This document shows positions 1 to 17,193 of a stretch of 64,000 nt of DNA, in pieces (positions within the stretch are counted from its first letter, which is position 1; each line of letters begins with the position of its first letter). The position numbers and the translations under genes are program-made. Below the pieces are notes generated by a model. That model did no database searches and was not told the DNA's origin. It worked only from the letters and a program-made list of their open reading frames with translations. This stretch comes from Ensifer sp. Root278 (GTDB taxonomy: Bacteria > Pseudomonadota > Alphaproteobacteria > Rhizobiales > Rhizobiaceae), in assembly GCF_001429285.1 (NCBI RefSeq), contig NZ_LMJJ01000002.1, positions 727 to 64,726 of the forward strand. The letters are read 5' to 3'.

Positions 1-143
1 GACAGCGTGAAGTCGTCCGTGTGGCAGATGCCGGTGGCCTTGACCTCGATCAGCACTTCGCCGGCCTTTGGGCCTTCGAGTTGAACCGTCATGACCTCAA
101 GCGGCTTGCCTGCCTGAACGGCAACGGCGGCACGTACATCCAT
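1..143 (-). CDS. adhC: Class III alcohol dehydrogenase / S-(hydroxymethyl)glutathione dehydrogenase, N-terminal part
   Basis: The first 47 residues are visible; the rest lies beyond the left edge. The N-terminus MDVRAAVAVQAGKPLEV and the motif ATGICHTDDFTLS, with the Cys of GICHTD as a catalytic zinc ligand, are typical of class III alcohol dehydrogenases. The family oxidises S-hydroxymethylglutathione, the spontaneous adduct of formaldehyde and glutathione, in the cytoplasm. The ATG is preceded by AGGGAGAAATTAG. It follows the GST-like gene by 48 bases on the same strand. That placement fits disposal of the formaldehyde made by the demethylase genes just upstream. The family is clear; the role in this operon is inferred. 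Confidence 0.9.
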   Translation of the reverse strand, partial: MDVRAAVAVQAGKPLEVMTVQLEGPKAGEVLIEVKATGICHTDDFTL

Positions 144-191: not shown

Positions 192-839
192 TTACGCAGC
201 TTTTGCCGGCCCGGCCGGAAACACCCCGGACATGACAATGAAGCCGTTGATGCGTTTGATGCGGTCGCACCAGCGGCGAATTGCCGGATAATCCTGCCTG
301 GAAATCCCGCCCTCCTCCGAAAGCATGATGTAGGGGAAGCAAGCAATATCGGCGATCGTCGGCTGCTTTGCCGAGCAGATCCATTGGCGTTCTTGCCGCT
401 CGCCGAACCAGAGATGTTCATCAAGGATCCGGAACAGCCTGTGAGCGCCGGCGCGCGCCGTATTAATGTCGAAGTCGTAAAACAGCGCGTCGTGCAGACG
501 GGCGGCCGACGCTGTGCTCGTAATGCCGTCGGCAAAGGCAAGCCACTGGCTGATCTCGCCCAAGAGCTCAGGATTATCGCGGGGATACCACGTTCCTGCT
601 GCGTCGTACTTCGCCGCGAGATAGACGAGGATCGCTTGCGCATCACGCAACACAAGCCCGTCATCGTCGACTACCGGCAATTGCCCGAGCGGGTTGAGCT
701 TCAAGAACCATTCCGACTTGTGTTCCCGGCCGGGATAGAAGTCGACGGGGACGGTCTTGTAGTCCACTCCCAGTATGCTCATAAGCAGCCGAAGCTTGTA
801 GCAATTGCCCGACAGTTCGTAGTCGTAGAGCTTGATCAT
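192..839 (-). CDS. Glutathione S-transferase-like protein (NdmE-like)
   Basis: A 215-residue protein with an N-terminal thioredoxin-like GST domain and a helical C-terminal domain. SGNCYKLRL near residue 10 is the usual active-site region, NPLGQLPVVDDDG contains the cis-Pro, and DAQAILVYLA is the glutathione-binding Asp/Ser-type segment. The start is the ATG at 839, preceded by AAGGA. It lies 11 bases downstream of the fused Rieske-reductase gene. In Pseudomonas putida caffeine degradation a GST-like protein, NdmE, is a structural partner of NdmC and NdmD. The same order here (GST, Rieske-reductase, Rieske-less oxygenase) suggests a similar structural role, though a true glutathione-dependent enzyme is possible. 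Confidence 0.85.
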   Translation of the reverse strand: MIKLYDYELSGNCYKLRLLMSILGVDYKTVPVDFYPGREHKSEWFLKLNPLGQLPVVDDDGLVLRDAQAILVYLAAKYDAAGTWYPRDNPELLGEISQWLAFADGITSTASAARLHDALFYDFDINTARAGAHRLFRILDEHLWFGERQERQWICSAKQPTIADIACFPYIMLSEEGGISRQDYPAIRRWCDRIKRINGFIVMSGVFPAGPAKAA

Positions 840-850
840 TTTCGGTATCC

Positions 851-2617
851 TTAGGCGTCGATCACGAGACGAGCTGATTTGCTGCGAGAGACACAGGTCA
901 TGATCTTTGTCCCCGAGGCACGCTCTGATGGGCTGAGATAGACATCCTGATGATCCGGCTCGCCTTCGATGACGGTTGCAAGACAGGTGCCGCAGGCCCC
1001 CTGTTCGCAAGATGAGGGAAGGTCCACGCCGGCATCGCGCATGGCTTCGAGAATGGATTGTCCCGCGCCCACCTTAATCGTCAGACAAGAACGCGCCAAG
1101 GCGACCTCGAAACTCGAGCTATCGTCAATGACGTTCGTGTTCTTGAAGTACTCGAAATGCACTGCTGCCTCGGGCCAACCTGCTTCGGCTGCCAGCGAGC
1201 GCGTCGACTCGAGCATCGGATTGGGTCCGCAGATATAGAGCTGTGTGTCCGGAAGATAAGGTGATAAAAGCCGGCGCAACTCGTTGACGGTGTCGCTGGG
1301 CGACAGCCCCAGATGGGGCATGACGGCATTGCCGAGTGCTTGCCTGCATTCGGAGAATGCGAGTTGCTGCTCGTTCTGCGCAAAGTAGTGTAGTTCGTAG
1401 GCGAGGCTCTGGTTGTTCAACGTCTGTGCCATCGCCAGCAAAGGCGTGACCCCAATCCCGCCGGCAACGAAGATAGTCTTCAATGCGTCGCGTCGAAGAG
1501 GAAAATTGTTCCTTGGCTCGGAGATAGCCAGTACGTCTCCTTCGCGCACGCTGTCATGAAGGCACTGGGACCCGCCCCTTGATGCAGGATCGAGCTTCAC
1601 CCCGATGGTGAATCGGTCCGTTTCACCGGGTCCATTGGTAAGCGAATACTGGCGGACAAGCCCGTTCGGAAGATGTACGTCGATATGGGCACCTGGCTGG
1701 AAGGTCGGAAGCAGACCTCTGATGGGCCGGAGTTCGAAGGCCATGATACCATCGGCAGTCTGCCACTTGCGCGCAACTTGCACCCGGATCGCGGCTTTGC
1801 GGCCACGACTGTCGAGTTCAGGCAAACTGGCGAGCTCTTCCGAGACCCGCTCGAAAATTGGTTCGATCGGTACGGGCACAGGCAGGGCCGCCGCCTCGCG
1901 CTCCAAGTCTTCGCGCAATTTGGAGAGCGCTTCATTGTGGTAGCGAAGCACCGCTGTCAGTTGAGCATCGTTCGGCCTGCCGCTGAGGACACCTCGGATT
2001 ACCGAGCGACCTGAATCGACCGGCTGGACGAAAAAAACGCCAAGCGTTTCAGCCCTGCCTTGGCAGCTTCTCAGAGCGACGGCCGCTTCAGTCGCTGCCA
2101 CCAGTTCAATGTTGGTGCCCGTTCCAGCAATCTCGCTGTTCGGCTGGAAGCGATAGGATTGCAACCTTTGAGCAACCAGTTCTGCCGACGCGTTGACCGG
2201 TATGGCGCGCAATACCAGGAGGTCATCTTCGCCAATTCCTTCCACCACGGGGAGATCGCCGCGCGGGTCCTCTGAGGACCACACCAAACCGTAGCGCTCG
2301 ACAGCTTGAAACGACCGGTTTGTAATGGTGCGCGCGGGCGCGTCTGCGGGGTGGGCCGGTATGTAGGTGCATCCGGCTGTGCGGTTCGAGTAACGCCACC
2401 CGTGATACTGGCATTTCAATTCCCGGCCGTCGTTGATGCCTATCGATAGCCGGACACCGCGATGCAGACAGCGATTTTCCCAGACGTTGACGTATCCATC
2501 GTCTGCGCGCCAGACAGCGAACTCTCGGCCAAGAAGTTGGCCATGGAACACATGCCGCAGCGGCAGATCGTCCGTTGCCGCGATCGGATGCCACCTAGTC
2601 CTCACATCTTCAAGCAT
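851..2617 (-). CDS. Rieske domain fused to phthalate-dioxygenase-type reductase (NdmD-like)
   Basis: A 588-residue electron-transfer protein. Residues 1-100 form a Rieske [2Fe-2S] domain with C50-x-H52 (CLHRG) and C69-x2-H72 (CQYHGW). A linker follows, then a flavin domain (RQYSLTNGPG), an NAD(P)-binding part (VAGGIGVTPLLAMA, YICGPNPML) and a C-terminal plant-type [2Fe-2S] ferredoxin (CEQGACGTC and a later Cys in IMTCVSRS). Ordinary reductases of this class lack the Rieske domain; NdmD of the caffeine N-demethylase has it because its partner NdmC does not. The neighbouring catalytic subunits here also lack it, so this protein probably feeds electrons to all three. The ATG at 2617 follows TTGGAGACCAAG; a TTG at 2629 is the less likely alternative. 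Confidence 0.9.
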   Translation of the reverse strand: MLEDVRTRWHPIAATDDLPLRHVFHGQLLGREFAVWRADDGYVNVWENRCLHRGVRLSIGINDGRELKCQYHGWRYSNRTAGCTYIPAHPADAPARTITNRSFQAVERYGLVWSSEDPRGDLPVVEGIGEDDLLVLRAIPVNASAELVAQRLQSYRFQPNSEIAGTGTNIELVAATEAAVALRSCQGRAETLGVFFVQPVDSGRSVIRGVLSGRPNDAQLTAVLRYHNEALSKLREDLEREAAALPVPVPIEPIFERVSEELASLPELDSRGRKAAIRVQVARKWQTADGIMAFELRPIRGLLPTFQPGAHIDVHLPNGLVRQYSLTNGPGETDRFTIGVKLDPASRGGSQCLHDSVREGDVLAISEPRNNFPLRRDALKTIFVAGGIGVTPLLAMAQTLNNQSLAYELHYFAQNEQQLAFSECRQALGNAVMPHLGLSPSDTVNELRRLLSPYLPDTQLYICGPNPMLESTRSLAAEAGWPEAAVHFEYFKNTNVIDDSSSFEVALARSCLTIKVGAGQSILEAMRDAGVDLPSSCEQGACGTCLATVIEGEPDHQDVYLSPSERASGTKIMTCVSRSKSARLVIDA

Positions 2618-2659
2618 CTTGGTCTCCAATTCATCATCAGTGTTTTGTTTTGGCGCAGT

Positions 2660-3565
2660 TCAATATGAAGCCGGGATGACCCCGTATCTGACGTCCTTCT
2701 GGCTCAGCCAGCGGCGATAGGCGATGGCGGACTTATCTGCCCGGATCGGCGTCTCGGCCCTGGGGTCGAGCGGCAGACGTTTGGGAAACTGGTTCTCCAA
2801 GATCGGCTTGTCCTGGCCGAAGATTGTCTGCTGAAACCGCTTGATCACCTTGTCTTCATTGTCCTCGTCGAGGATGCAAAGCATCATGTGCGCGCGGACA
2901 CTCTCCTGGCTGAGAGGCTGCATGAAAACCGCGATGACATCGTACCGGGCATCGTTGACCGGGCTCGATTTGTAGAGAACCGAGCAATAGGGGTGGGGCA
3001 CACGGAAGATATACTCGACCTCGGCGCCAGTCTCCGACGCACTCGATGCCAAAGGCTGGAAGAAGCGGCAGCGGGTTGCCAGGATCTCGTCCCGCTCCAC
3101 CGATATGTCGACGTCGTATTCCTTGACCTCGGTGTGCGGTTCAACGCCCAGGATATCCGTGTGGACATAGGGAAAATGGCCCATATCGAGGAAATTCTCG
3201 ATCGCGCGCGGCGCTGAGACATTGACGCCGAAGGTCGCTGCATTCAGTCGCCGCCGATCGGTTTCCTCATATTCAGGAATGGGAAAAAGCTCATCGGGTG
3301 GAGAGCCGAGGGAAGCCCAGAGATAGCCGAAGGCCACCTTCGCCGGCAGCGATTTGCTCACGGACGCCACATCGATTTTGTCGCCAGCGACAAAATCGGG
3401 GCAGGACCGCCAAACCGCAACCTCCCTGCCAAGGCCGACTGCGAGGCTGAGCCGTTCCTCCAGTAGAACGGTATCGACAACCGTATCGACCGGGAGCTCA
3501 ACCAACGCCCCGAGCGGGTGCCATAGGTTCAGGACGACGGGGTCCAAACATCTTGTCTTTGCCAT
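2660..3565 (-). CDS. Rieske-less non-heme iron oxygenase catalytic subunit (NdmC-like)
   Basis: A 301-residue member of the Rieske oxygenase alpha-subunit family. The mononuclear iron motif N124-x2-D127-x2-H130-x4-H135 (ENFLDMGHFPYVH) is intact and D252 in QDKPILENQ is the likely third ligand. The N-terminal region aligns with a Rieske domain (LGREVAVWR ... FGYLWASLG), but no C-x-H/C-x2-H pair is present, so no cluster can bind. NdmC of caffeine N7-demethylation has this layout and gets electrons from the Rieske domain of NdmD. The ATG at 3565 follows GGAGGAATCTCTT. The gene begins 36 bases after the stop of its paralogue and lies 42 bases before the reductase gene. The substrate is unknown; an N-methyl compound is the best guess. 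Confidence 0.87.
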   Translation of the reverse strand: MAKTRCLDPVVLNLWHPLGALVELPVDTVVDTVLLEERLSLAVGLGREVAVWRSCPDFVAGDKIDVASVSKSLPAKVAFGYLWASLGSPPDELFPIPEYEETDRRRLNAATFGVNVSAPRAIENFLDMGHFPYVHTDILGVEPHTEVKEYDVDISVERDEILATRCRFFQPLASSASETGAEVEYIFRVPHPYCSVLYKSSPVNDARYDVIAVFMQPLSQESVRAHMMLCILDEDNEDKVIKRFQQTIFGQDKPILENQFPKRLPLDPRAETPIRADKSAIAYRRWLSQKDVRYGVIPASY

Positions 3566-3601
3566 AAGAGATTCCTCCATGTTCATCTGAGCCGTCGTCA
3601 A

Positions 3602-4465
3602 TCAGACAGGGTACGCAATCGCGCCATACGTGACCGAGCGATCACGAAGCCAACGTCGATAATGGACGGAGACGGCATCGGCCCTGATCGGGGTTTCCGC
3701 ACGCGGATCGAGCGGCAGGCGTCGCGGGCGCTGGTTTTCGAGGATCGGCTTGTCCTGCGCAAATATCAGCTGCATGAAACTGCGCGCCGCCGCTGCCTCC
3801 AGGCCCTGCTTGAGGTAGCAGAGGTAGGAGTAAACGATGCAGTTCTCCTCATCGACCGGCTGGATGAACAGCACGATCAGATCCTTTCGGTCGGGATCAA
3901 GAGGATTGCTCTTGTAGAGTGCGACCGTATAGGGCCGGAAGACCTTGTAGATATAGTCGACCAGCATCGCCGCCCGTGCCGTTGGGGAGGCAAACGGCTG
4001 GAGAAACTTGCAATCGGTCGCCAGCACCTCATCTGCTGCCGTGATCGTCACATTGTAGGGCAGCACTTCCGTGTGCGGCTCATCGCCCAGCCAGCCCGTG
4101 TGCACGAAGGGAAAGTGCCCCATATCGAGAAAGTTCTCGACGGCTCGCAGACCCGACACTCTGACTGCGATGGAGCCGCCGCTCAACAAGTGGCGATCGG
4201 CCTCGTTCGTTTCGGGCAAGTATATGATGTCTCGTTCCGGCCGTCCGAGGCACGCCCAGATAAACCCGTATCGCGAATCTGAACAGACTTCTTCACCTGT
4301 ATCCAACTCGACCACTCGCAGGTTGTAGCGGCCATCGAGTGTGACCTGGAGGTCATGCCCCATCAGACGTGTGGTGAAAGCCGAATTCGACATCAGCGCA
4401 GACCGCTCGGCGACAACGTGCCAGTCGTTGAGAAGCGAACGATCGACGCAGCGAAACTCTCCCAT
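3602..4465 (-). CDS. Second Rieske-less oxygenase catalytic subunit (NdmC-like)
   Basis: A 287-residue paralogue of its downstream neighbour and first gene of the operon running to adhC. The iron motif is N111-x2-D114-x2-H117-x4-H122 (ENFLDMGHFPFVH), with D238 in QDKPILENQ. The Rieske region is shortened (residues 30-75) and has no cluster ligands. It is the most divergent of the three copies in its N-terminal half, which suggests a different substrate or a heteromeric partner role. The ATG at 4465 has GGAGG seven bases upstream; the frame is open 5' of it, but the upstream codons have no ribosome site. Function as an N-demethylase subunit is inferred from NdmC architecture and the adjacent NdmD-like gene. 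Confidence 0.85.
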   Translation of the reverse strand: MGEFRCVDRSLLNDWHVVAERSALMSNSAFTTRLMGHDLQVTLDGRYNLRVVELDTGEEVCSDSRYGFIWACLGRPERDIIYLPETNEADRHLLSGGSIAVRVSGLRAVENFLDMGHFPFVHTGWLGDEPHTEVLPYNVTITAADEVLATDCKFLQPFASPTARAAMLVDYIYKVFRPYTVALYKSNPLDPDRKDLIVLFIQPVDEENCIVYSYLCYLKQGLEAAAARSFMQLIFAQDKPILENQRPRRLPLDPRAETPIRADAVSVHYRRWLRDRSVTYGAIAYPV

Positions 4466-4873: not shown

Positions 4874-5806
4874 TCATTCCCGGCGATAGGGAATTCCAAG
4901 CGCGACCGGCTGATGTGTTCGCGATCTCAGCCCAGCCAGAAGCACGAGTGAGGCCACATATGGCAATACCAGGAAGACGTGGTGCGGAATTGAAACCCCA
5001 ACGACCTGCGCATGAATTCCGATGGCTTCGAGCAACGCGAAAATGAAGATCGCTCCAACCACACGGAAAGGCATCCAGTTGCCGGCAATGATGGCAACAA
5101 CGACGAGCCAACCGCGACCGGCGATAAGATCTGGCACAAATCGGTCGGAATACCCCAGCATCAGGAACGCGCCCCCGAAGCCGGACATCACGCTTCCGAA
5201 CATGATCGCCAGGCATTGGCGGCCACCGACGCTTAGACCCTTGACGTCGAGCGCTTTCGGATTTTCCCCGACGCAGCGAACTTCAAGCCCGTATCGGGTG
5301 CGATAAAGAAAGAACCAGACCGCGAGCGGAAGGAGAAAGCTGACATAGGTTAGAACACGCTGGGAAAACAGCACCGTTCCAAGGACGGGAATATCCGATA
5401 AGTACGGAATCTCGACAGCTTCGAAGCCGGCGAACTTGGGAGGGTCGCGCCCGATGATATAGGTCTGGAACCAGAAGAGGGTCAGCCCAGAGGCAAGCAG
5501 GTTCAGGGCCAGACCGGCGATGAACTGCTCTGATTTGAGCACGATGGTGACAAAGGACAGGATCAGGCTCAAGAGCGCGCATGCCAGGACCGCCACAAGC
5601 AGGGCTAGCCACGGCGAACCTGTCGATGAGGCGATCACGTAGGCGACGACTGCGCCGAGCAACATCGTTCCCTCGACGGAGATGTTCCAGATACCGGCCC
5701 GTTGAGTGACGAGTTCGCCCATTGCCGAGAACAAGAGCGGCGTGGCAATCCGAACCATCGCGGCGAGAATGCTGATGAACAGCGGTCCCTGAAAAAGCTC
5801 AAGCAT
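4874..5806 (-). CDS. BMP-type ABC transporter permease, second subunit
   Basis: A 310-residue integral membrane protein of the branched-chain/ribose-type permease family, as found in nucleoside/purine importers with a BMP (PnrA-like) binding protein. It has about eight to nine hydrophobic segments and the family motif GELVTQRAGIWNISVEGTMLLGA near residue 32. A second typical motif, GENPKALDVKGLSV, precedes the cytoplasmic coupling loop. The ATG at 5806 overlaps the end of the first permease gene by 8 bases, so translation is probably coupled. With the ATPase and binding protein upstream it forms a complete importer. Confidence 0.9.
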   Translation of the reverse strand: MLELFQGPLFISILAAMVRIATPLLFSAMGELVTQRAGIWNISVEGTMLLGAVVAYVIASSTGSPWLALLVAVLACALLSLILSFVTIVLKSEQFIAGLALNLLASGLTLFWFQTYIIGRDPPKFAGFEAVEIPYLSDIPVLGTVLFSQRVLTYVSFLLPLAVWFFLYRTRYGLEVRCVGENPKALDVKGLSVGGRQCLAIMFGSVMSGFGGAFLMLGYSDRFVPDLIAGRGWLVVVAIIAGNWMPFRVVGAIFIFALLEAIGIHAQVVGVSIPHHVFLVLPYVASLVLLAGLRSRTHQPVALGIPYRRE

Positions 5807-6878
5807 GCGCTTCACTCCTGACGGTGATATGGACCCTGGTAGCCACGGCTGCGCACAGGAAGAAGAGCAGGACGAGCCCTTCCATGGCCGAGACGAGCCC
5901 GGCGGGAGTTCCGCTCTGCAAACGCATGTAAATCGCGCCGCTTTTAAGCGCGCCAAAGAAGAGTGCTGCAAGCATGGCACCGCTCGGTCGCAGCCCTCCC
6001 ACCATCGCAACGACGATGCCGGAACTGCCAATACCGAGCAGTGTTTCAGCGCGCAGGCGATGGGAGGTTCCAAATAGCTCGCCTGCGCCAGCGAGCCCCG
6101 CCAGCGCGCCGGACACAAGCATCACCACCAGCAAAAGGCGGCTGATATCGGTTCCGCGGAACCTCAAAGCAGTCGGATTGGAGCCGAAAGCGCGGATCTC
6201 GTAGCCAAGCGGCGTTCGCTCCAACAATAAAGCGGACAGCGCCGTGGCACCGAGTGCGAGAATGAAGCCGAAGTGCAGCTTGGCCGCGCCCTGGCCAAAC
6301 AGCGTCGGCCACTCCAGCATCGCATTGACCGGCGGCGACTGATGATAGGCGACGGTCGCCCCCGATTCCATCCAGGGCCCGCCATCAAGCAGGTAGGCAA
6401 GCAGAAAGATCACGATATAGTTCAGCATCACCGTCGAGATGATTTCGCTGGTGCCAAAACGGGTCTTGAGAACGCCGGCCAGGAGACCCAAGACGCCGCC
6501 ACCTGCCAGGCCGGCAAGGACCAGAACGGCAACCGCGATCAGATACGGCAGCGGTCCAATCCATAGGCTGGCCCAGTAGGCACACATTGCGCCGGCCAGA
6601 ACCTGCCCTTCCTGCCCGATATTCCAGATCTTCGCCCTGAAAGCGATGACGGTTCCAAGGCCGACAAGCAACAGCGGCGTCGCTTTGGCAAGCGATCCGA
6701 GCAGCGCCTTCTGGCTGCCGAAAGCTCCCACAATGAGCGAGGAGAACGCCTTCGCCACATCGCCTCCCGACAAATGGAGCAAGGCGGCCGCGGAAAAAAG
6801 AGCGCATACCATTGCCGCTGCATAGCAGGCGAAATTCCAGCTCAGGCTATTGCCTGAGCGCCTTTGAACTGAAATCAT
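5799..6878 (-). CDS. BMP-type ABC transporter permease, first subunit
   Basis: A 359-residue permease with about ten hydrophobic segments. FRAKIWNIGQEGQVLAGA and FGSNPTALRFRGTDISR are the two signatures shared with its partner permease. TSEIISTVMLNYIVIFLLAYLLDGGPW is typical of the nucleoside/BMP importer subgroup. The ATG at 6878 lies inside the end of the ATPase gene (32-base overlap) and follows GGTGGACAGGTCA; a TTG at 6893 is a weaker alternative. It would form the membrane channel with the second permease. The subgroup is known mostly for purine nucleosides and related ligands. Confidence 0.9.
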   Translation of the reverse strand: MISVQRRSGNSLSWNFACYAAAMVCALFSAAALLHLSGGDVAKAFSSLIVGAFGSQKALLGSLAKATPLLLVGLGTVIAFRAKIWNIGQEGQVLAGAMCAYWASLWIGPLPYLIAVAVLVLAGLAGGGVLGLLAGVLKTRFGTSEIISTVMLNYIVIFLLAYLLDGGPWMESGATVAYHQSPPVNAMLEWPTLFGQGAAKLHFGFILALGATALSALLLERTPLGYEIRAFGSNPTALRFRGTDISRLLLVVMLVSGALAGLAGAGELFGTSHRLRAETLLGIGSSGIVVAMVGGLRPSGAMLAALFFGALKSGAIYMRLQSGTPAGLVSAMEGLVLLFFLCAAVATRVHITVRSEAHA

Positions 6879-8397
6879 TGACCTGTCCACCAAGGTTGCT
6901 GGCGTTACCCGCCATCATCATTCCAAGCTCGAGGAGTGTCGTTTCCCCGGGCTGCACAATCCCCATGATCTTGCCCTTGAAGATCACGGCGATGCGATCA
7001 CAGAGACGCAAAAGGTCGTCGAGTTCCTCGGAAGCCAGAAGGACGGCGAAGCCCTCGGCACGCTTTTCCAGGATCTTCTCGTAAACGAATTCGGATGCGG
7101 CCACATCGAGCCCGCGCGTGGGCTGATTGGCAAGCAGCAGGCCCCTGGCGTGGAGAAATTCGCGTGCAAGAATGACACGCTGGGCATTGCCGCCGGACAG
7201 GCGCTCGACGGGCAGGTCCGCGGAGGCAGCCACGATCCTGAACTCATCGATCTTGTGCGCGGCCAAAGCGTTGATCTTGCCACGATCGAGGAATGGTCCG
7301 CGTCTGTATTCCGGCTTACGCTGCCACCCCAGTACCAGGTTCTCGGCAATTCCGAACTCCGGGATCAATCCTTCGCGGAAACGATCGTCAGGCACGAGCC
7401 CTACACCTCTGTCGAGCATTTCGCGCGACGTCGGTGCAACTATCGCCTCGCCGTTGAGGTGAAAGCCGCCCGAACTCAGCGTCCTCACGCCCATCAGGAC
7501 TTCGAACAGTTCTTTCTGGCCGTTGCCCGCAACACCCGCCAGGCCAAGAATTTCGTTCTCCGCGATGGTGAAGTTGACATCGCAAAGCACTTCTTCCCCC
7601 CACTCGCCAATGGCAACCGCGCGGTCGACGACGAGAACTTCGCGCCCCGGAGTGACCGATCTGTCACTGACGCGCTTCGTCACCTTGTGCCCGACCATCA
7701 GTGCCGTGATGGCTTCTGCCGTCGTGGTAGATGTCTCGACTGTGGCAACGACCTTGCCTTTGCGAAGGATCGTCACGCGATCGGACTGCATCACTTCCCG
7801 TAGCTTGTGGCTGATCAGGATGATCGACAGTCCCTGGCGCCGCATGCCATCAAGTATGACGAACAGCTGGTCGGACTGTTGCGGGGTCAGGACGGCTGTC
7901 GGCTCGTCGAGGATCAACAGTTCCGCGCCAAAGTACAGCGCCTTGAGGATTTCGACCCATTGCTGCTCACCAACCGAAAGCTGCCAGATCTCGCGATCGA
8001 GATCGAGCTCTATGCCGCATCGCAGACAGAGCTCCTCGACCTTTCGTCGCGCGGCTGACTTCGACAACAATATCCCGAGATCGGGGCTGCCTACGATGAT
8101 GTTCTCAAGGACGGTGAAGTTTTCAACAAGCACGAAGTGCTGGTGCACCATGCCGATCCCCAAGCGGAGCGCGTCTGCCGGTGAATTAAGCTCGGCAACC
8201 TGCCCCTTGAAGCGAATGACGCCACTGTCTGCGCGATAGTATCCGTAAAGACAGGCAGACAGTGTCGATTTGCCGGCGCCATTCTCACCGAAGAGACAAT
8301 GAATTTCGCCCTTGCGAACGTCGAGATCGACGTTGTCGTTCGCGGTAACGGCTCCGAACCGCTTGGTCAGGTTCTGTACGCTGAGAAGATTTTCCAT
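6847..8397 (-). CDS. ABC transporter ATPase with two nucleotide-binding domains (BMP/nucleoside type)
   Basis: A 516-residue tandem ATPase of the RbsA/nucleoside-importer type. The first domain has Walker A GENGAGKST, signature LSVGEQQWVEI and Walker B LLILDEPTAVLTP. The second has a degenerate Walker A (GVAGNGQKEL), normal for this family, with LSGGNAQRVILAREF and a Walker-B-like LLLANQPTRGLD. It energises uptake through the two permeases downstream. The ATG at 8397 lies 32 bases after the binding-protein gene. Intact motifs and overlaps with the permease genes indicate a working operon. Confidence 0.93.
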   Translation of the reverse strand: MENLLSVQNLTKRFGAVTANDNVDLDVRKGEIHCLFGENGAGKSTLSACLYGYYRADSGVIRFKGQVAELNSPADALRLGIGMVHQHFVLVENFTVLENIIVGSPDLGILLSKSAARRKVEELCLRCGIELDLDREIWQLSVGEQQWVEILKALYFGAELLILDEPTAVLTPQQSDQLFVILDGMRRQGLSIILISHKLREVMQSDRVTILRKGKVVATVETSTTTAEAITALMVGHKVTKRVSDRSVTPGREVLVVDRAVAIGEWGEEVLCDVNFTIAENEILGLAGVAGNGQKELFEVLMGVRTLSSGGFHLNGEAIVAPTSREMLDRGVGLVPDDRFREGLIPEFGIAENLVLGWQRKPEYRRGPFLDRGKINALAAHKIDEFRIVAASADLPVERLSGGNAQRVILAREFLHARGLLLANQPTRGLDVAASEFVYEKILEKRAEGFAVLLASEELDDLLRLCDRIAVIFKGKIMGIVQPGETTLLELGMMMAGNASNLGGQVNDFSSKALRQ

Positions 8398-8429
8398 CGA
8401 GTGAAACCAGTCCTGTTCTAGCGTCTGCG

Positions 8430-9449
8430 CTACTTCACCTCCGCGGTATTGAGGGGCACGACAAACTCGCCGGAAATGATCTTCTGTCTCGTCGCGGCGA
8501 GCTCCTCTTTGACGGCAACCGGCAACTTTGCATCAAAGTCGTGATAGGGCGCGATATCGACGCCGCCCTGGCTCATAGAGAACCATTTTGGCTCGGTGTT
8601 TCCATTGTACTGTCCACCAGCCTTGTGCTTGAGCCACTCCGAGATGATCCATTTGATATCCGGCTGCCAATCGATGATCGCACTCGATGCTATTGCGTCT
8701 GGCGCCAGCTTGCTTTGGTCGTTGATGTTGGCAAAGCACATGATCCGGTGTTCCTGGCAGGGCTTGAAGTTGTCCGTCAGCATGAACACGACATCCGCAC
8801 CCGACGCGATCTGCACATTGGCATGCTCGGCTGCCAGCGCATTGTCGGACCAGGAACCGATAAAGGAGACGCGGTGCTTCACGTCCGGTCTGACCGATCT
8901 CGCGCCATCGAGAAACGCATTGATCTGGTCGTTGACGTCGTCTGCCGCAAACGTCCCGACCAGGCCGATGACGCCAGATTTCGTTGTGCGGCCGGCCAGC
9001 ATGCCGAGCAGATAGGACGGTTCGTGTAGTCGTTTGTAGAGCCAGTATTGATTGGCCCCGAGAGGCAGGTTGCCCGATCCGGTTACCACAAACATGATGT
9101 CAGGGAATTCGGCGCTAAGTTTCTTTACCTGGTCCGAATATCGGCCGTGGGCCCAGATAATGTCGTACTCGCCGCCTTCGGCGTAGAAGCGCATGGCATT
9201 TTCCGCATCGTCGTTCCACAGCGGGTCCGTGTACTCCCACGATATGTCGAGCCCGTCTGGCCTCGCCTGCTTCACCTGTTCCAACGAATCCAGCAAGGTC
9301 CGCGTCCAGCCGATATCGGTGCGGCTCTCGAGAATAAGAGCGATCTTCAGTGAGGTTGGCCCTGCTGCAAAGGTTCGATCGACCGCCGAAAGCAGAAATG
9401 CCCCCATCGAACCCAGGATCGCGGTGCGGCGTGTGATGCTGATAGGCAT
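8430..9449 (-). CDS. BMP/PnrA-like periplasmic substrate-binding protein
   Basis: A 339-residue protein of the basic membrane protein family, the binding component of nucleoside and purine ABC importers. The start MPISITRRTAILG followed by a hydrophobic stretch and TFAAGPT looks like a Tat-type or long Sec signal. ILESRTDIGWTRTLLDSLEQ and the segment TGSGNLPLGANQYW fit the PnrA fold. The ATG at 9449 follows CAGGAGGAGTATCAT. It is the first gene of the importer operon and lies 246 bases after the third oxygenase gene. Its position between two demethylase-subunit loci suggests that it delivers the substrate, plausibly a methylated purine. Confidence 0.88.
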   Translation of the reverse strand: MPISITRRTAILGSMGAFLLSAVDRTFAAGPTSLKIALILESRTDIGWTRTLLDSLEQVKQARPDGLDISWEYTDPLWNDDAENAMRFYAEGGEYDIIWAHGRYSDQVKKLSAEFPDIMFVVTGSGNLPLGANQYWLYKRLHEPSYLLGMLAGRTTKSGVIGLVGTFAADDVNDQINAFLDGARSVRPDVKHRVSFIGSWSDNALAAEHANVQIASGADVVFMLTDNFKPCQEHRIMCFANINDQSKLAPDAIASSAIIDWQPDIKWIISEWLKHKAGGQYNGNTEPKWFSMSQGGVDIAPYHDFDAKLPVAVKEELAATRQKIISGEFVVPLNTAEVK

Positions 9450-9695: not shown

Positions 9696-10592
9696 TTAGC
9701 CGCTGCCTGTGACGACACCGTAGCGAAGGCCCCTTTCACGAAGCCATCGACGATAGGCTGCAGAGGCGGCGTCGGCGCGGATCGGAACCTCCGAGCGCGA
9801 GTCCAGTGGCAAGCGCTTGGGCACCTGATTTTCAAGAATGGGCTTGTCTTGCCCGAGAATGGTCTGGTGAAAGCTGCGCATCGCGGCCAGATCCGTGACT
9901 TCGTCAAGCAGACAGATAACGATATGCACGAGCACCTGGTCCTCGCCGACGGGCTGGCCGAAGAGCGCGATAACATCGCGCCGGTCCGGACGCGTCGATC
10001 CCGTCTTGTAAAGAACGGCACAAAACGGATGGGGTATTCTGTAGACGTATTCGGTATCTGCGCCCGTCTCCGAACCGGCATTGGCCTGCGGTTGGTAGAA
10101 CTCGCAACCGGTGACCAGAATTTCGGGTGGGTCGGAATAGACGTCGACCTTGTAAGGCTTGACCTCCGTATGGGGTTCCTCCCCCAGGATTCCTGTGTGA
10201 ACGAACGGGAAATGCCCCATGTCCAGGAAGTTCTCGACCGCGCGCGGCGCCGAGACACCGACGCGTGTGACGCCCTGAACGATGCGGCTGCGATCCGGCT
10301 CGTCGAACTCTGGTATTTCGAACAGATCGCGCGGCGGGTCGCCCAAGGTGGCCCAGAGGTAACCGAACCGCTGAATGGTTGGCAACTCCGTACCGGACGT
10401 CTGAGCGCCGCTCGGCTCGGCAGCGGCTTGCGGCTCACGCCATGCACCCAACCGATCGCCATGCCGGCCGATCAATATCCTCTGACCGAGAAGGACAGTA
10501 GAAAACATGCCGGTGGACGGAAGTTCCTCGAGTGAGGCGACGACATGCCATTCGTCGCGTGCAATCGGGTCGATGTGACTGAGGTTTTCCAT
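9696..10592 (-). CDS. Third Rieske-less oxygenase catalytic subunit (NdmC-like)
   Basis: A 298-residue paralogue of the two NdmC-like proteins nearer the left edge. The iron motif is N121-x2-D124-x2-H127-x4-H132 (ENFLDMGHFPFVH), with D249 in QDKPILENQ. The Rieske portion is replaced by a low-complexity Ala/Pro/Ser linker (residues 55-70) without Cys or His ligands. It resembles the protein encoded at 2660-3565 more than the one at 3602-4465. It sits alone between the araC-type regulator and the importer, about 7 kb from the only Rieske-reductase gene, so it would have to share that reductase. The ATG at 10592 gives the family-like MENLSHIDPIARDEWH; the ribosome site (GGGATTG) is weak. Confidence 0.86.
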   Translation of the reverse strand: MENLSHIDPIARDEWHVVASLEELPSTGMFSTVLLGQRILIGRHGDRLGAWREPQAAAEPSGAQTSGTELPTIQRFGYLWATLGDPPRDLFEIPEFDEPDRSRIVQGVTRVGVSAPRAVENFLDMGHFPFVHTGILGEEPHTEVKPYKVDVYSDPPEILVTGCEFYQPQANAGSETGADTEYVYRIPHPFCAVLYKTGSTRPDRRDVIALFGQPVGEDQVLVHIVICLLDEVTDLAAMRSFHQTILGQDKPILENQVPKRLPLDSRSEVPIRADAASAAYRRWLRERGLRYGVVTGSG

Positions 10593-10776: not shown

Positions 10777-11568
10777 TCAGCCGTTCAGCATTTTCTCGCG
10801 GAGCTCGGTCGGGGAGCAGTCGAAGGCCAGCTTGATCTGGCGCGAAAAATGATAGGGATTCTTGTAGCCGACCTGGTAGGCAATCTCGCTCACGGACAAG
10901 CCGCTGCGTTGCAAGAGGTGCGCGCCATAGTCCAGCCGACAGCGCCAGAGATACCGAGCCGGCGTCATGCCCAAGTGCTTCTTGAAGGCGGACACAAGAT
11001 ACTGTGGGCTTACACGAACCTGTTGCGCGACGCGCTCGATGGAAACGTCTGCGGCGAAGTTTTCATCAAGAAAGCGGCGCGCCTGCAGGATCGTCTGCGG
11101 GATAGGCCTTTCCTCCGCAACAACTTCCGCCTCGTAAATATAGGCGTTGAGGAGAGTGTTCGTCAGAGCTTCGCGCAAGCCACCACGACCATCGCGGTCC
11201 CCGATCCCGAGATCGACACCCAGTTGCATTAATGTCTGGACCTGCGTCGAGGCGTTAATGAAGGGCGCATATTTGTGGCGCTCCTTGTAGAGCCAAGCAG
11301 CATTTTGTGGTCGGCCATCGCACCAGCTGATGTGAGTTAGCGTCTCGGGAGCGATGGTCGTCAAATAGCGGTCCCTTGTCAGGGATAGCGCACACTGGCC
11401 CGCCTCCAGCTGCAACACTGTTTCATCGGCCTCGATCTTGAGCGATCCGAGATGCACGATGATGAAGGCAAGGTAATCCCCCCGGATGGGGCCATACTGC
11501 CCTCCGCTTTCGTAGGAGATCTCTCCGAACGTGTTTTCCCGACTGAGATCTATGGGCGGCAGTCGCAT
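10777..11568 (-). CDS. AraC-family transcriptional regulator
   Basis: A 263-residue regulator with an AraC C-terminal double helix-turn-helix (about residues 160-260). The first HTH lies around VSIERVAQQVRVSPQYLVSAF and the second around LSVSEIAYQVGYKNPYHFSRQ, ending with the family's FG-like CSPTELREKM. The N-terminal half is a cupin-like effector domain of the AraC_binding type. It sits between glyA and the third oxygenase gene, the natural control point of the demethylation cluster. An inverted repeat (11595-11626) upstream suggests autoregulation. The ATG at 11568 has AAGG upstream. Confidence 0.93.
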   Translation of the reverse strand: MRLPPIDLSRENTFGEISYESGGQYGPIRGDYLAFIIVHLGSLKIEADETVLQLEAGQCALSLTRDRYLTTIAPETLTHISWCDGRPQNAAWLYKERHKYAPFINASTQVQTLMQLGVDLGIGDRDGRGGLREALTNTLLNAYIYEAEVVAEERPIPQTILQARRFLDENFAADVSIERVAQQVRVSPQYLVSAFKKHLGMTPARYLWRCRLDYGAHLLQRSGLSVSEIAYQVGYKNPYHFSRQIKLAFDCSPTELREKMLNG

Positions 11569-11708: not shown

Positions 11709-12977
11709 TTAATGCCCCGCCGAGTAGATCGGGAAGGCCGCGCAAAGATCGTGGACCGACATTCTCGCGCGTCGCTCCTGTTCGGAACTTTGCTCGGTGC
11801 CAAGGGCGTCGAGGACGTCCGCGATCAACGCGCCAACTTCGTTGAACTCCGCTTCGCGGAAACCGCGGCTGGTGGCCGCTGGCGTGCCGAGCCGGATGCC
11901 GGAAGTTACAGCCGGGGGCGCTGGATCGAAGGGAATGCCGTTCTTGTTGCAGGTCAGCCCGGCACGCCCCAAGGCTTCTTCCGCATCCTTGCCGGAAACC
12001 CCTTTGCTGCGCAGGTCAACCAGGATCAAATGCGTATCGGTCCCCCCCGAAACGATATCGTATCCTCGTTCGGTCAGCGCTGAGGCGAGGGCCCGGGCAT
12101 TGACCACCATCTGGCGAGCGTATTGCCTGAAGTTGTCTTCAAGCGCTTCGCCCAACGCCACCGCTTTTGCCGCTATGACATGCATCAGCGGACCACCCTG
12201 CAATCCCGGAAACACCGCAGAGTTCACCTTTTTCGCTAAGTCCTGATTGTTGGTCAGGATCATACCGCCGCGAGGGCCGCGTAGCGTCTTGTGCGTTGTC
12301 GTGGTGACGACGTCGGCGATTTCAACCGGGTTAGGATGCACCCCTCCAGCGACCAGACCGGCAAAATGCGCCATATCGACCATCATGGCCGCCCCGACAG
12401 AATCTGCGATCGCCCGAATTCGCTTGAAGTCGATCAGACGCGGATAGGCCGACCCGCCGGTAATGATCAGCTTCGGCCGCGTCGCTATGGCCTTTTCTTC
12501 GAGCTCCTCATAATCAATGAGGCAATCGCTCTTCCGAACGCCATATTGGACGGCGTTGAACCACTTCCCTGACATGGTCGGCCGAGCCCCATGGGTAAGA
12601 TGGCCCCCGGCGGCAAGCGACAGGCCCATGAAGGTGTCGCCCGGCTTTAACAGGGCGAGCATGACGGCGCCGTTGGCCTGCGCACCGGAGTGCGGCTGCA
12701 CGTTGACGAACGATGCGTCAAACAGCATTCCAGCGCGTTCTATCGCAGCGGCTTCGACGAGATCGACATACTGGCATCCACCATAATAGCGGTGCCCCGG
12801 ATAGCCCTCGGCATATTTGTTGGTCATGACGGAGCCTTGCGCGGCAAGAACCGCTGGCGACACGATGTTCTCCGACGCGATCAGTTCGATCTCGGATCGT
12901 TGCCGCCCCATTTCGCGCGCGATCGCTCCGGCAATGACCGAATCATGCTTGAGCTGTCTTTCGAATAAACCAGGCAT
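11709..12977 (-). CDS. glyA: Serine hydroxymethyltransferase
   Basis: A 422-residue PLP enzyme that interconverts glycine plus 5,10-methylene-THF and serine plus THF. Family landmarks are [29 protein letters not shown], the PLP lysine in [15 protein letters not shown], and [13 protein letters not shown]. Length is normal and no key residue is missing. The ATG at 12977 follows CAGGAGAAAAATCG. It lies 76 bases after the hydroxyacid dehydrogenase gene in a run with purU, metF-like and gcvT-like genes. This looks like a second, pathway-specific glyA that assimilates C1 units onto glycine. Confidence 0.95.
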
Positions 12978-13053: not shown

Positions 13054-14010
13054 TTAGCAGACCGCATCAGGCGGCGAACGGCCGCTGAAAAACGCCTTCA
13101 GATTCTCGATGACGCGCATGCCCATGGCGACGCGGGTCTCCTTCGTCGCACTCCCCAGATGCGGCAACAAAACCACGTCCTGCCGCTCGGCCAGACGACC
13201 GGGAACACGCGGCTCGCTTTCGAAGACGTCCAGGCCTGCGCCCGCTATCCTCCGGGTTTCCAGCGCGCGGACCAGAGCATGTTCGTCCACGACGTCACCC
13301 CTGGCTGTATTGATAAGGAACGCTGACCATTTCATGCAGGCGAGCCGATCGTCGTCGATGAGGTGATAGTTTTCGCCTCCACCGGGGCAATGAAGCGAAA
13401 CAAAGTCGGCGACCGCAAGCACGTCGTCAACGCTCGGCAATTGGCGCGCGGGCACGTCAAGACCGGTAATCGGATGGCTGTCAAAGAAGACGACGTCCAT
13501 ACCGAAGCCAAAGTGGCACCGCCGTGCCATAGCCTGCCCGATCCGCCCCATTCCAATGATGCCGACGGTCTTTCCGGTGACGTGGGATCCGCAAAGATGC
13601 GTGGGACGCCAACCTGTCCATTTGCCGGCCCGCAGTTCCCTCTCCCCTTCCCCTGCGCGTCTCGCGCACATCAAAAGGAGGGTCATCGCCAGATCGGCGG
13701 TCGCATCCGTCAGCACGCCTGGCGTGTTTGTGACAACGAGTCCGGCCCTTGTTGCCGCCGCTACATCGATATGATTGAAGCCAACGCCGAAGTTACCGAG
13801 AATCTTTGCTCGAATACCCCCCTCGAGAATGTCGGCGCTGATCTTATCGGTTACGGTTGGCAGGACCGCATCGGCTTCTTCAAGCGCGGCTCGCAATTCA
13901 CGCCGATCCAAAGGCTGATCGGTTTCGTTCAGCCGCGCATCGAATTCTGCAGTCAACCGGTCTTCAACTTCCGTCGGCCAGCGCCGAGTTACGATGACCT
14001 TCGGTTTCAC
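13054..14010 (-). CDS. D-2-hydroxyacid dehydrogenase (glyoxylate/hydroxypyruvate reductase type)
   Basis: A 318-residue enzyme with the NAD(P)-binding motif [16 protein letters not shown] and the catalytic set NTARG (Arg), an Asp/Glu pair around LDVFESEP, and His in [13 protein letters not shown]. The family reduces glyoxylate or hydroxypyruvate. Next to a serine-glyoxylate aminotransferase, reduction of hydroxypyruvate to D-glycerate is the likely job. Two starts are possible: GTG at 14010, preceded by AGGAGGGACAGGATT and giving the family-like [12 protein letters not shown], or ATG at 14028, which overlaps the upstream stop as ATGA. I prefer GTG. Confidence 0.9.
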
Positions 14011-14024
14011 AATCCTGTCCCTCC

Positions 14025-15230
14025 TCATGCCGCACGTTCCTGAAGGTTGCGAGCGGCAAGTCCGATCTGCGAGCGATACCATTCCTGCGCCGCCGCAACG
14101 CCGGACCCGGCTTCGATCTTTGCTCCAGCATCACGCAGAGACATCTCGGCCGCCGCAAGCGCTGACAGACACATCACCTCGTTCAGGTCGCCGAGGTGGC
14201 CGATCCTGAAAACCCGGCCCGCCACCTTGCTGAGCCCGGCACCGAATGAGGTGCGGTACTTGGAATAGCCGTTCGCGATAACCTGCCTGGCGTCGATGTC
14301 CTCAGGGACCACGATGGCGGAGACCGTGTCGGACCACCACTTCTTCTCTGTGGCACAGAGGGTCAAACCCCAGGCATGAACACCGCGGCGAACGCCTTCC
14401 GCAAGGCGGTGATGCCGAGCAATGACTGCGTCCAATCCTTCCGCGAAAATCAGATCCAGCGATGCTCTCAGGCCAATAAGTAGCTGTGTCGGCGGCGTAT
14501 AGGGGAAGTAGCCGGTGGCTGACGGCGCTTTCATATCCTCGAAGCTGAAATAGCAGCGTTCGATCGTCGAACTCGCGTGCGCCTCAAGCGCCTTTGGGCT
14601 GACGGCGAGGATACCGAGGCCTGCCGGCAGCATCAGGCCCTTCTGCGAGCCGGTAACGGCGAGATCGACACCCCAGTCGTCCATCCGGAATTCGATGGAT
14701 GCTATCGAGCTGACCCCATCAACGAACAGCAGAGCTTTGTGGCCGGTATCGTCGAGTGCGGCCCGCACGGCGGCCACGTCCGAAGTCACGCCCGTCGCCG
14801 TCTCGTTGTGCGTGACAAATACCGCCTTGATCCGACGGTTCTTGTCGGCGTCCAAGCGCCGACGGTACTCTTCGACGGGAACACCCTCGCCCCATTCGAC
14901 GTCGAGGCATTCAACATCGAGCCCGAGACGGCTAGCCATGTCTGCCCAAAGATGGGAAAACTGGCCGAAACGAGACATCAGCACCCGATCACCACGGTTG
15001 AGGGTGTTCGATATCGCCGCCTCCCATGCTCCGGTTCCAGAACCCGGGAACAGGAAAATCGACCCAGTGTCAGTTCGGAAAACCCGCTTGAGATCGGCGA
15101 ACAGCGGCAGAACCAGGTCGGGAAAGTCCGGCGCCCGCATATCCTGCATGGGCACGTTCATGGCTCGACGTACCACATCCGGGATATTTGTCGGTCCGGG
15201 CACGAAGAGATGTGATGTTCCATTTCGCAT
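14025..15230 (-). CDS. Serine-glyoxylate aminotransferase
   Basis: A 401-residue class V aminotransferase of the SgaA type. It carries LFVPGPTNIPDVVRRAM at the N-terminus, FPGSGTGAWEAAISNTL, the PLP Asp in VDGVSSIAS and the PLP lysine in TGSQKGLMLPAGLG. Known members transfer the serine amino group to glyoxylate, giving hydroxypyruvate and glycine. With GlyA and the hydroxyacid dehydrogenase on either side this rebuilds the core of a serine-type C1 assimilation route. The ATG at 15230 follows GGGAGGACCATGCA. Its stop overlaps a possible start of the next gene. Confidence 0.92.
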   Translation of the reverse strand: MRNGTSHLFVPGPTNIPDVVRRAMNVPMQDMRAPDFPDLVLPLFADLKRVFRTDTGSIFLFPGSGTGAWEAAISNTLNRGDRVLMSRFGQFSHLWADMASRLGLDVECLDVEWGEGVPVEEYRRRLDADKNRRIKAVFVTHNETATGVTSDVAAVRAALDDTGHKALLFVDGVSSIASIEFRMDDWGVDLAVTGSQKGLMLPAGLGILAVSPKALEAHASSTIERCYFSFEDMKAPSATGYFPYTPPTQLLIGLRASLDLIFAEGLDAVIARHHRLAEGVRRGVHAWGLTLCATEKKWWSDTVSAIVVPEDIDARQVIANGYSKYRTSFGAGLSKVAGRVFRIGHLGDLNEVMCLSALAAAEMSLRDAGAKIEAGSGVAAAQEWYRSQIGLAARNLQERAA

Positions 15231-15323: not shown

Positions 15324-16184
15324 TTAGGCGAAGACGACAGTCTTTCGGCCGTTGAGCATGACGCGTGCCTCAAGGTGCCGTTTGACAGCGCGCGCCAGAA
15401 CGCGGCTTTCGATGTCTCGGCCAGCTGCGACGAAATCCTCGACACTCATCGCATGTGATACGCGTTCGGTTTCCTGCTCGATGATAGGTCCCTCATCGAG
15501 GTCGGCAGTGACATAGTGTGCCGTCGCGCCGATCAGCTTGACGCCGTGCTCATGGGCCTGGTGATAGGGACGAGCACCCTTGAAGCTGGGCAGAAATGAA
15601 TGATGAATGTTGATGACCTTTCCGAACAATCGACCGGCGATATCGTCGGAAAAGACCTGCATGTAGCGCGCCAGAACCACCAGGTCGGCTTCCGTTTCTT
15701 GAACGATCGCGAAGATGCGGTCCTCTTGCTGTTTTTTGTTTTCCCGGTTGATCGGCAATAAATGGTAGGGGATGCCCGCCCACGCGGCCGTCTCGCGACT
15801 GTCGTCGTGATTGGAAATCACCGCCATGACCTCGGCATCGAGCCAGCCGACACGGATCTGGTAAAGCAGGTGCAGGAACGCATGGTCAAACCGCGAGACC
15901 ATGATGACAATTTTCGGCGCCTTTCGACAGTCGATCAGCCGCCCCTGCATCTCAAACTGTCCAAGGACTGGCGCCAGACCGCGTTCGATCCGATCAGCCG
16001 ACGTCTCGCCCGATGGTGTGAACGCGATCCGCATGAAGAAGCGGTTGGTGGCGCGGTCCCAATACTGGTTGCTTTCAACGATGTTGGTGCCGAGGACGTG
16101 AAGCTGCGAGGTTACTGCAGCCACGATCCCTGCCCGGTCATCACAAGTCAGAGTGAGAACGAAGGGCTGCGTCAGGCTGGTCAT
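15324..16184 (-). CDS. purU: Formyltetrahydrofolate deformylase
   Basis: A 286-residue enzyme with an N-terminal ACT domain (FVLTLTCDDRAGIVAAVTSQL) and a C-terminal formyltransferase-like domain. VISNHDDSRETA, the catalytic motif VINIHHSFLPSFKGARPY, and GATAHYVTADLDEGPIIEQ with the essential Asp are intact. It hydrolyses 10-formyl-THF to formate and THF, releasing C1 units and recycling the cofactor. Its ATG at 16184 overlaps the stop of the metF-like gene by 4 bases (ATGA), so the two are translationally coupled. Similar genes sit beside folate-dependent demethylases in other bacteria. Confidence 0.95.
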   Translation of the reverse strand: MTSLTQPFVLTLTCDDRAGIVAAVTSQLHVLGTNIVESNQYWDRATNRFFMRIAFTPSGETSADRIERGLAPVLGQFEMQGRLIDCRKAPKIVIMVSRFDHAFLHLLYQIRVGWLDAEVMAVISNHDDSRETAAWAGIPYHLLPINRENKKQQEDRIFAIVQETEADLVVLARYMQVFSDDIAGRLFGKVINIHHSFLPSFKGARPYHQAHEHGVKLIGATAHYVTADLDEGPIIEQETERVSHAMSVEDFVAAGRDIESRVLARAVKRHLEARVMLNGRKTVVFA

Positions 16185-17074: not shown

Positions 17075-17193
17075 CGCCTCACCCGGATTTTCAAGCAGGG
17101 CAGATCCGTTGGCCGCAGCGAGAGCAGCGACCATGGTCTGCGGAGCATCGATGGAGGGAGCCCGACCGCTTCAGCAGCCGGGCAACAGGGTAC

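Follow-up and report, generated by a model that had tools for sequence, protein, structure and literature searches.

The window analysed here is a stretch of 64,000 nucleotides from Ensifer sp. Root278 (contig NZ_LMJJ01000002.1, positions 727 to 64,726), and near its beginning lies a group of minus-strand genes encoding an apparent split Rieske oxygenase, in which the mononuclear iron and the Rieske cluster reside on different proteins. Three genes encode catalytic subunits without a Rieske cluster (A, B and C), one encodes a fusion of a Rieske domain with a reductase, and one encodes a protein resembling glutathione S-transferase (GST). An earlier note on this DNA had drawn its bounds at 851-4465, and these limits coincide exactly with the genes for the fusion, C and B. 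The core genes are as follows, each with the evidence used to assign it.

192..839, minus strand: GST-like subunit (NdmE homologue), 215 residues; 67% identity to NdmE, Pfam GST_N/GST_C_2.
851..2617, minus strand: NdmD-like fusion, 588 residues; Pfam Rieske, NAD_binding_1 and Fer2, comparison with NdmD.
2660..3565, minus strand: cluster-less catalytic subunit C, 301 residues; Pfam, identity to NdmC, tree, motifs, structural model.
3602..4465, minus strand: cluster-less catalytic subunit B, 287 residues; Pfam, identity to NdmC, tree, motifs.
9696..10592, minus strand: cluster-less catalytic subunit A (third paralogue), 298 residues; Pfam, identity to NdmC, tree, motifs.

Each catalytic subunit retains the iron-binding motif N-x2-D-x2-H-x4-H (NFLDMGHFPFVH or NFLDMGHFPYVH) together with a downstream Asp, and in none of them do Rieske ligands (C-x-H, C-x2-H) precede this motif; A has no Cys whatever ahead of it. 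At E 0.001, the only Pfam matches were to VanA_C in all three and to KshA_C in C, none being to Rieske, so that the motif scan and Pfam both uphold what had been noted earlier, namely oxygenase subunits that keep the iron motif and lack the cluster motif. The three proteins share 43-50% pairwise identity. A canonical Rieske alpha subunit holds both metal sites in one chain; here we found one motif per chain. A pattern scan returned at least 538 encoded relatives, and 80 loci were kept for counts, 25 of them shorter than 20.8 kb with their flanks partly covered. An NdmC-type profile applied to the collected loci recovered 158 sequences; the Rieske motif was present in none of the 145 scoring above 150 bits and in 11 of the 13 scoring below. 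Loss of the Rieske ligands through sequencing error is ruled out, as the relatives likewise lack the motif. The cluster from the GcvT-like gene to the GST gene is also found on plasmid pSymA of Sinorhizobium meliloti 1021, at 89-98% identity protein by protein, and because the same arrangement recurs there and no NdmC-type sequence above 150 bits has a Rieske motif, it is not the product of chance or of a local sequencing fault.

The closest characterized counterpart is NdmCDE, which has been described as a 7-methylxanthine N7-demethylase in a pathway that yields formaldehyde (PMC4408171, PMC10380055). As reference for NdmA to NdmE we used a Pseudomonas putida MT178 plasmid (locus L091), located via an NdmA fragment from a PDB alignment; over 208 residues its NdmA shares 92% identity with the NdmA of solved structure. 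A, B and C match NdmC at 43-45% identity (E 5e-80 to 5e-89), the fusion matches NdmD at 37% over its full length, and the GST-like protein matches NdmE at 67%, so that the likeness to NdmCDE proposed in the earlier note holds for every component. A subunit phylogeny had been set beforehand as a check. We estimated a tree of 103 rows, comprising 98 cluster-less sequences and five outgroup sequences, after 47 of the 145 had been dropped (3 fragments and 44 from near-duplicate loci). The subunits grouped with NdmC and apart from the cluster-bearing oxygenases, the cluster-less rows being separated from the five outgroup rows by a 100/98 branch, although the program warned of long branches; within the cluster-less part C, B and A fell in separate clades and NdmC in another. 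That the window encodes an NdmCDE-type system is thus near certain.

The architecture of the fusion suggests how the enzyme may have come to be split. Its domains are a Rieske domain at 9-90, a region at about 120-245 discussed below, a reductase binding flavin adenine dinucleotide and NAD at about 280-495, and a plant-type ferredoxin at 512-578, with the motifs C50-x-H...C-x2-H (Rieske) and C537-x4-C-x2-C (ferredoxin). Pfam recovers Rieske, NAD_binding_1 and Fer2 as well as a sub-threshold DmmA-like match, and the motifs and Pfam together confirm a full Rieske domain in front of a flavin/ferredoxin reductase, as had been claimed. The Rieske motif is present in 79 of 79 full-length fusions vs 0 of 145 catalysts, and the iron motif in 142 of 145 catalysts vs 0 of 79 fusions (sought as D-x2-H-x3-5-H at fusion positions 101-290). 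When fusion residues 115-285 were compared with the C-terminal half of the catalytic domain, hhalign gave a score of 44.2 over 41 columns; the highest score among 60 column-shuffled controls was 20.1, reversal gave 12.8, and nine unrelated families reached no more than 16.3. An AlphaFold model of the fusion (27 sequences; predicted local distance difference test, pLDDT, 77) shows residues 169-243 as four strands with a long helix, and Foldseek aligned it with SxtT and GxtA over 279-307 columns (gaps included) of 311-329 residues, a span larger than expected of a lone Rieske domain. That the linker is unrelated sequence was considered and is ruled out by the hhalign scores against their controls and by the Foldseek span. 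The linker therefore looks like a vestigial oxygenase catalytic domain, as judged from profile comparison and a predicted model, and the catalyst and the electron donor are likely complementary half-dead copies of one ancestral alpha subunit. This pattern suggests a duplication with reciprocal loss of metal centres, in which one copy lost the cluster loops and the other the iron site; such a history would explain the split of the enzyme and gives a structural prediction.

In some distant relatives the Rieske half is encoded on its own, as a small protein. At ten loci in nine genomes (L117-L126), a small Rieske protein of 197-256 residues (start guessed) accompanies a cluster-less catalyst and a GST; the three genes adjoin in nine loci and are spread over 9 kb in L117, and L121 holds a second cluster-less gene besides the set. 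These ten stand-alone Rieske proteins on their own match the same stretch of the catalytic domain, with a score of 46.1 over 26 columns and at most 18.1 in 50 shuffles, and thus seem to carry the vestigial tail as well. In L118 a separate reductase gene lies alongside, whose 351-residue product matches fusion residues 277-587; the reductase part of the fusion, sought at E 1e-8, had no match in the stretch covered of the other nine loci. On the Rieske tree two changes are needed to account for the origin of the fusion, and a single change sufficed in only 8% of bootstrap trees. We found no description of such an unfused set in the open-access literature searched.

Relatives occur across Rhizobiales and also outside this order; among 385 genomes drawn evenly from the class of the window, 8, the window's own among them, had a match at E 1e-40. 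A full-length fusion was not found in the stretch covered of seven of 81 loci (L045, L046, L064, L066, L072, L075 and L076), contig ends being mostly unchecked. One of these, in Pseudonocardia dioxanivorans (L046:9899-10903), encodes a C-type cluster-less subunit 63% identical to that of the window, and the fusion and GST queries had no match in the flanks covered. Two plasmids are noted separately: one from a kombucha-tea Komagataeibacter (L093) carries ndm-like genes among transposases, including annotated separate Rieske and reductase genes and an additional divergent cluster-less subunit, and one from a Klebsiella pneumoniae urine isolate (L094) carries an ndmCDE-like set together with an NdmA/NdmB-like gene.

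We modelled subunit C with AlphaFold (23 sequences, pLDDT 81.7), obtaining five strands and a helix at 160-256. The model aligns with SxtT and GxtA over about 330 columns with a query TM-score of 0.72-0.78, and with NdmA over about 330 columns with 0.66-0.70, in both cases at a root-mean-square deviation (rmsd) of about 6-7; these enzymes carry the Rieske cluster on the catalytic chain, whereas A, B and C do not. SxtT and GxtA are the nearest solved structures for B by sequence and for C by fold, and as they are described as hydroxylating enzymes, and the catalytic domain matches VanA_C, one may postulate that the system is an O-demethylase of the vanillate demethylase type or a ring hydroxylase, with the neighbouring one-carbon genes serving methoxyl groups. 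We regard this as quite improbable, since the subunits group with NdmC and some relatives have purine-catabolic neighbours; VanA_C is also matched by the distant NdmC-type subunit of L118 and is therefore no guide to substrate.

Our preferred explanation, to which we assign a probability of roughly 0.68, is that the locus encodes an NdmCDE-type split Rieske oxygenase that would N-demethylate methylated purines imported by the adjoining ABC (ATP-binding cassette) transporter of the BMP type. Electrons would pass from NADH to the flavin of the fusion, on to its ferredoxin cluster and then to its N-terminal Rieske cluster, from which they would cross to the mononuclear iron bound by another protein (A, B or C); there O2 would hydroxylate the N-methyl group, and the methyl would leave as formaldehyde. 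In complete Rieske oxygenases the Rieske cluster is reported to lie about 12 Å from the partner iron (PMC12445004), and the dead alpha-like half of the fusion might lie against the catalytic subunit in the way that adjacent subunits of a Rieske trimer lie against each other. The GST may hold the fusion and the catalytic subunit together. NdmCDE is described as a 3:3:3 complex whose catalytic subunit is soluble only with the reductase and the GST, and a structural role has been proposed for NdmE (PMC10380055). In agreement with such a role, when GST, subunit C and fusion of other loci were compared with those of the window, the GST came out best conserved in 72 of 76 loci (medians of 76% for the GST, 64% for C and 60% for the fusion); the earlier note had mentioned a GST-like neighbour of the fusion, and its identity to NdmE and its Pfam domains bear this out. 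Tentatively, and with less confidence than doubt, we also consider that the half-dead paralogues rebuild an alpha-ring between proteins, the dead catalytic domain of the fusion filling a place in the ring with its Rieske cluster facing the iron of its neighbour. A, B and C would then alternate in or share the ring, with one reductase and one GST, and demethylate different positions of methylguanine-type purines, and the stand-alone Rieske proteins would be the unfused version.

The three catalysts differ at a position that is altered in an NdmA selectivity mutant. All 145 cluster-less rows were aligned, with groups of 5 (A), 40 (B), 83 (C) and 4 (NdmC) rows; only three columns are at least 85% conserved within each group while showing three or more residues between groups, and one of them corresponds to an NdmA position where Asn is replaced by Gln in the 'QL mutant' (6icp/6icq). 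Two mutations in NdmA are reported to shift demethylation from N1 to N3 (PMC8055839). The residues in the window are His242 (A), Met231 (B) and Gln245 (C). When all rows were assigned by nearest identity, this column held His in 5 of 10 A sequences (the other five, at no more than 45% identity, have Gln or Glu), Met in 38 of 41 B sequences (with one gap, one Ala and one Ile), and Gln in all C (85/85) and NdmC-group (9/9) sequences. A, B and C may thus prefer different methyl positions or bases. As a prediction from sequence, this clade-specific residue favours the idea in the earlier note that the three paralogues could differ in the positions they act on. With three paralogues to one reductase, and a hydrophobic residue in B at the selectivity position, it could also be argued that a single subunit is active and that the others are decaying or regulatory pseudo-subunits. 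We consider this very improbable: the iron motif and the downstream Asp are kept in A, B and C alike, and among 81 loci B occurs with C in 35 and never without it, while C occurs alone in 42 and all three occur in four, besides L089.

The remaining genes of the cluster, all on the minus strand, bear on the substrate and on the fate of the released carbon.

1..143, minus strand: FrmA-like S-(hydroxymethyl)glutathione dehydrogenase, start only; a FrmA-like gene also follows the GST in L009 and L089.
4874..5806, minus strand: ABC transporter permease 1 (BPD_transp_2), 310 residues; Pfam/NCBIfam.
5799..6893, minus strand: ABC transporter permease 2 (BPD_transp_2), start codon provisional; Pfam/NCBIfam.
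6847..8397, minus strand: ABC transporter ATPase; Pfam/NCBIfam.
8430..9449, minus strand: BMP/PnrA-type substrate-binding protein; Pfam Bmp, E 2e-25.
10777..11568, minus strand: AraC-family regulator; Pfam.
11709..12977, minus strand: serine hydroxymethyltransferase; NCBIfam, above cut-off.
13054..14010, minus strand: D-2-hydroxyacid dehydrogenase, glyoxylate/hydroxypyruvate reductase-like; NCBIfam, below cut-offs.
14025..15230, minus strand: BhcA-like glyoxylate aminotransferase; NCBIfam, 598.7 bits vs a cut-off of 650.
15324..16184, minus strand: formyltetrahydrofolate deformylase PurU; NCBIfam, above cut-off.
16181..17134, minus strand: methylenetetrahydrofolate reductase-like protein; weak match.
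17194..18450, minus strand: stand-alone GcvT-like folate-binding protein; best NCBIfam match to the C-terminal half of the trimethylamine N-oxide demethylase model, below cut-off.

The four-gene transporter (4874-9449) separates B from A. The rest of the FrmA-like gene lies on contig bases 1-726, ahead of the window, where it is broken off by the contig end; pieces similar to this region (bases 1-869) occur on other contigs, a possible cause of the assembly break. Elsewhere in the window, 22968-24362 encodes a SorA/SorT/SoxC-like sulfite dehydrogenase with NCBIfam scores far under the cut-off.

FrmA-like genes were found in 16 of the 80 relatives' loci and FghA-like genes in 8 (a 27% FrmA match in L085 was left out of the counts, as were 27-31% Xdh-like matches in L048), with fghA following frmA in L009; these fit a release of formaldehyde, which may pass to FrmA and, via the GcvT-like protein, to folate. 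Purine-catabolic genes flank four loci (L030, L033, L039 and L049), and relatives with such flanks include Mesorhizobium, Rhizobium and Nocardioides. Guanine deaminase follows the GST directly in L030 and L039; L033 has a fusion of allantoinase with 2-oxo-4-hydroxy-4-carboxy-5-ureidoimidazoline (OHCU) decarboxylase together with XdhAB, and L049 has a xanthine permease-OHCU fusion, xanthine dehydrogenase and guanine deaminase. Across 43 whole genomes the same four have, among the matches listed, guanine deaminase or an over-cut-off XdhB within 20 kb of a cluster, against a chance expectation of about 0.7 genomes (a rough estimate that takes such genes to number two or three per 6 Mb; two of the four, L030 and L039, are related). 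Among the unfused sets, L121 has guanine deaminase and OHCU decarboxylase above cut-offs, and below cut-offs are a xanthine-dehydrogenase-like protein in L117 and 8-oxoguanine-deaminase-like proteins in L119 and L120. The deaminase neighbours fit methylguanine as well as methylxanthine. Glyoxylate from purine breakdown might be met by the aminotransferase and serine hydroxymethyltransferase. N-demethylation with release of formaldehyde is likely from these gene contexts, and the substrates would on balance be methylated purines; the earlier proposal of an N-demethylase is in this way indirectly supported by the adjoining formaldehyde dehydrogenase, and by the purine-catabolic genes that a minority of the relatives have nearby.

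Several observations weigh against this reading and call for caution. The alignments that identify the catalytic remnant are short, at 41 and 26 columns; the linker alone had no match among the cluster-bearing oxygenases of the collected loci (score 15.9), and Pfam at E 10 returned no catalytic domain between the Rieske and reductase domains of the fusion. The fusion model has a predicted TM-score of 0.50 and a pLDDT below 50 at 50-99, in the Rieske loops, and its Foldseek alignments with SxtT and GxtA have an rmsd of 7.6-11 and a target TM-score of about 0.5, with residue ranges not given; the model of C is uncertain at 132-144, the site of the second iron His. As to substrate, purine genes in four of 80 loci is a low count, and queries with XdhA, XdhB, guanine deaminase and allantoinase-OHCU had no match in the nearest relatives (L009, L036 and L089). 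The nearest NCBIfam models of the transporter are B6 transporters, all below cut-off, and BMP-type uptake is unlike the NCS2 permease of Pseudomonas-type ndm clusters. This last difference would also suit the same split enzyme and electron path acting on a non-purine N-methyl heterocycle or betaine, such as trigonelline, proline betaine or another legume compound, as would the orthologous cluster on pSymA and, in L090, annotated trimethylamine methyltransferase family and glycine betaine ABC transporter genes about 8-15 kb from the core. Such a substrate seems unlikely to us given that guanine deaminase, xanthine dehydrogenase, allantoinase/OHCU decarboxylase or xanthine permease flank some relatives and that NdmCDE is reported to be specific for 7-methylxanthine (PMC10380055). 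The passages found on S. meliloti locus tags, trigonelline and the transportome assigned nothing to this cluster, and those on homarine or methylguanine with Rieske enzymes held nothing relevant. As a separate observation, L016, L061, L087 and L088 have cluster-bearing Rieske oxygenases beside BMP transporters related to that of the window, with a plain reductase in L016 and L088.

The NdmCDE architecture in rhizobia is already known: a review records ndmCDE homologues of unknown function mainly in Sinorhizobium and Mesorhizobium (PMC4408171), and the window very probably belongs to this group. What it says on the rhizobial homologues does not extend to paralogues, a vestigial domain, neighbouring genes or a substrate. 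New here are the fusion linker, which looks like a catalytic-domain remnant in both profile and model comparisons, and the apparent complementarity of catalyst and donor; the occurrence in distant relatives of a small free-standing protein that corresponds to the Rieske half; the His/Met/Gln difference of clades A, B and C at the residue of the NdmA selectivity mutant; and the adjoining formaldehyde dehydrogenase and folate one-carbon genes, with purine-catabolic neighbours in few relatives. The spread of the system and its guanine deaminase or xanthine dehydrogenase neighbours in some lineages hint that methylated purines, whether derived from RNA, DNA or plant alkaloids, are handled by a general route; S. 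meliloti 1021, a model symbiont with the same cluster, offers a place to test this. A single reductase that serves three catalysts would also be of use where N-demethylation has to be position-selective.

Compared with NdmCDE of P. putida CBB5 (via L091), the window shares a cluster-less catalyst, a Rieske-reductase-ferredoxin fusion, a GST-like partner and nearby formaldehyde genes. Unlike the NdmCDE cluster, it has no cluster-bearing NdmA or NdmB, the fusion being the sole Rieske match in the window, and it has folate and serine one-carbon genes and a BMP-type ABC transporter; and where NdmCDE has one catalytic subunit, the window has three paralogues in separate clades.

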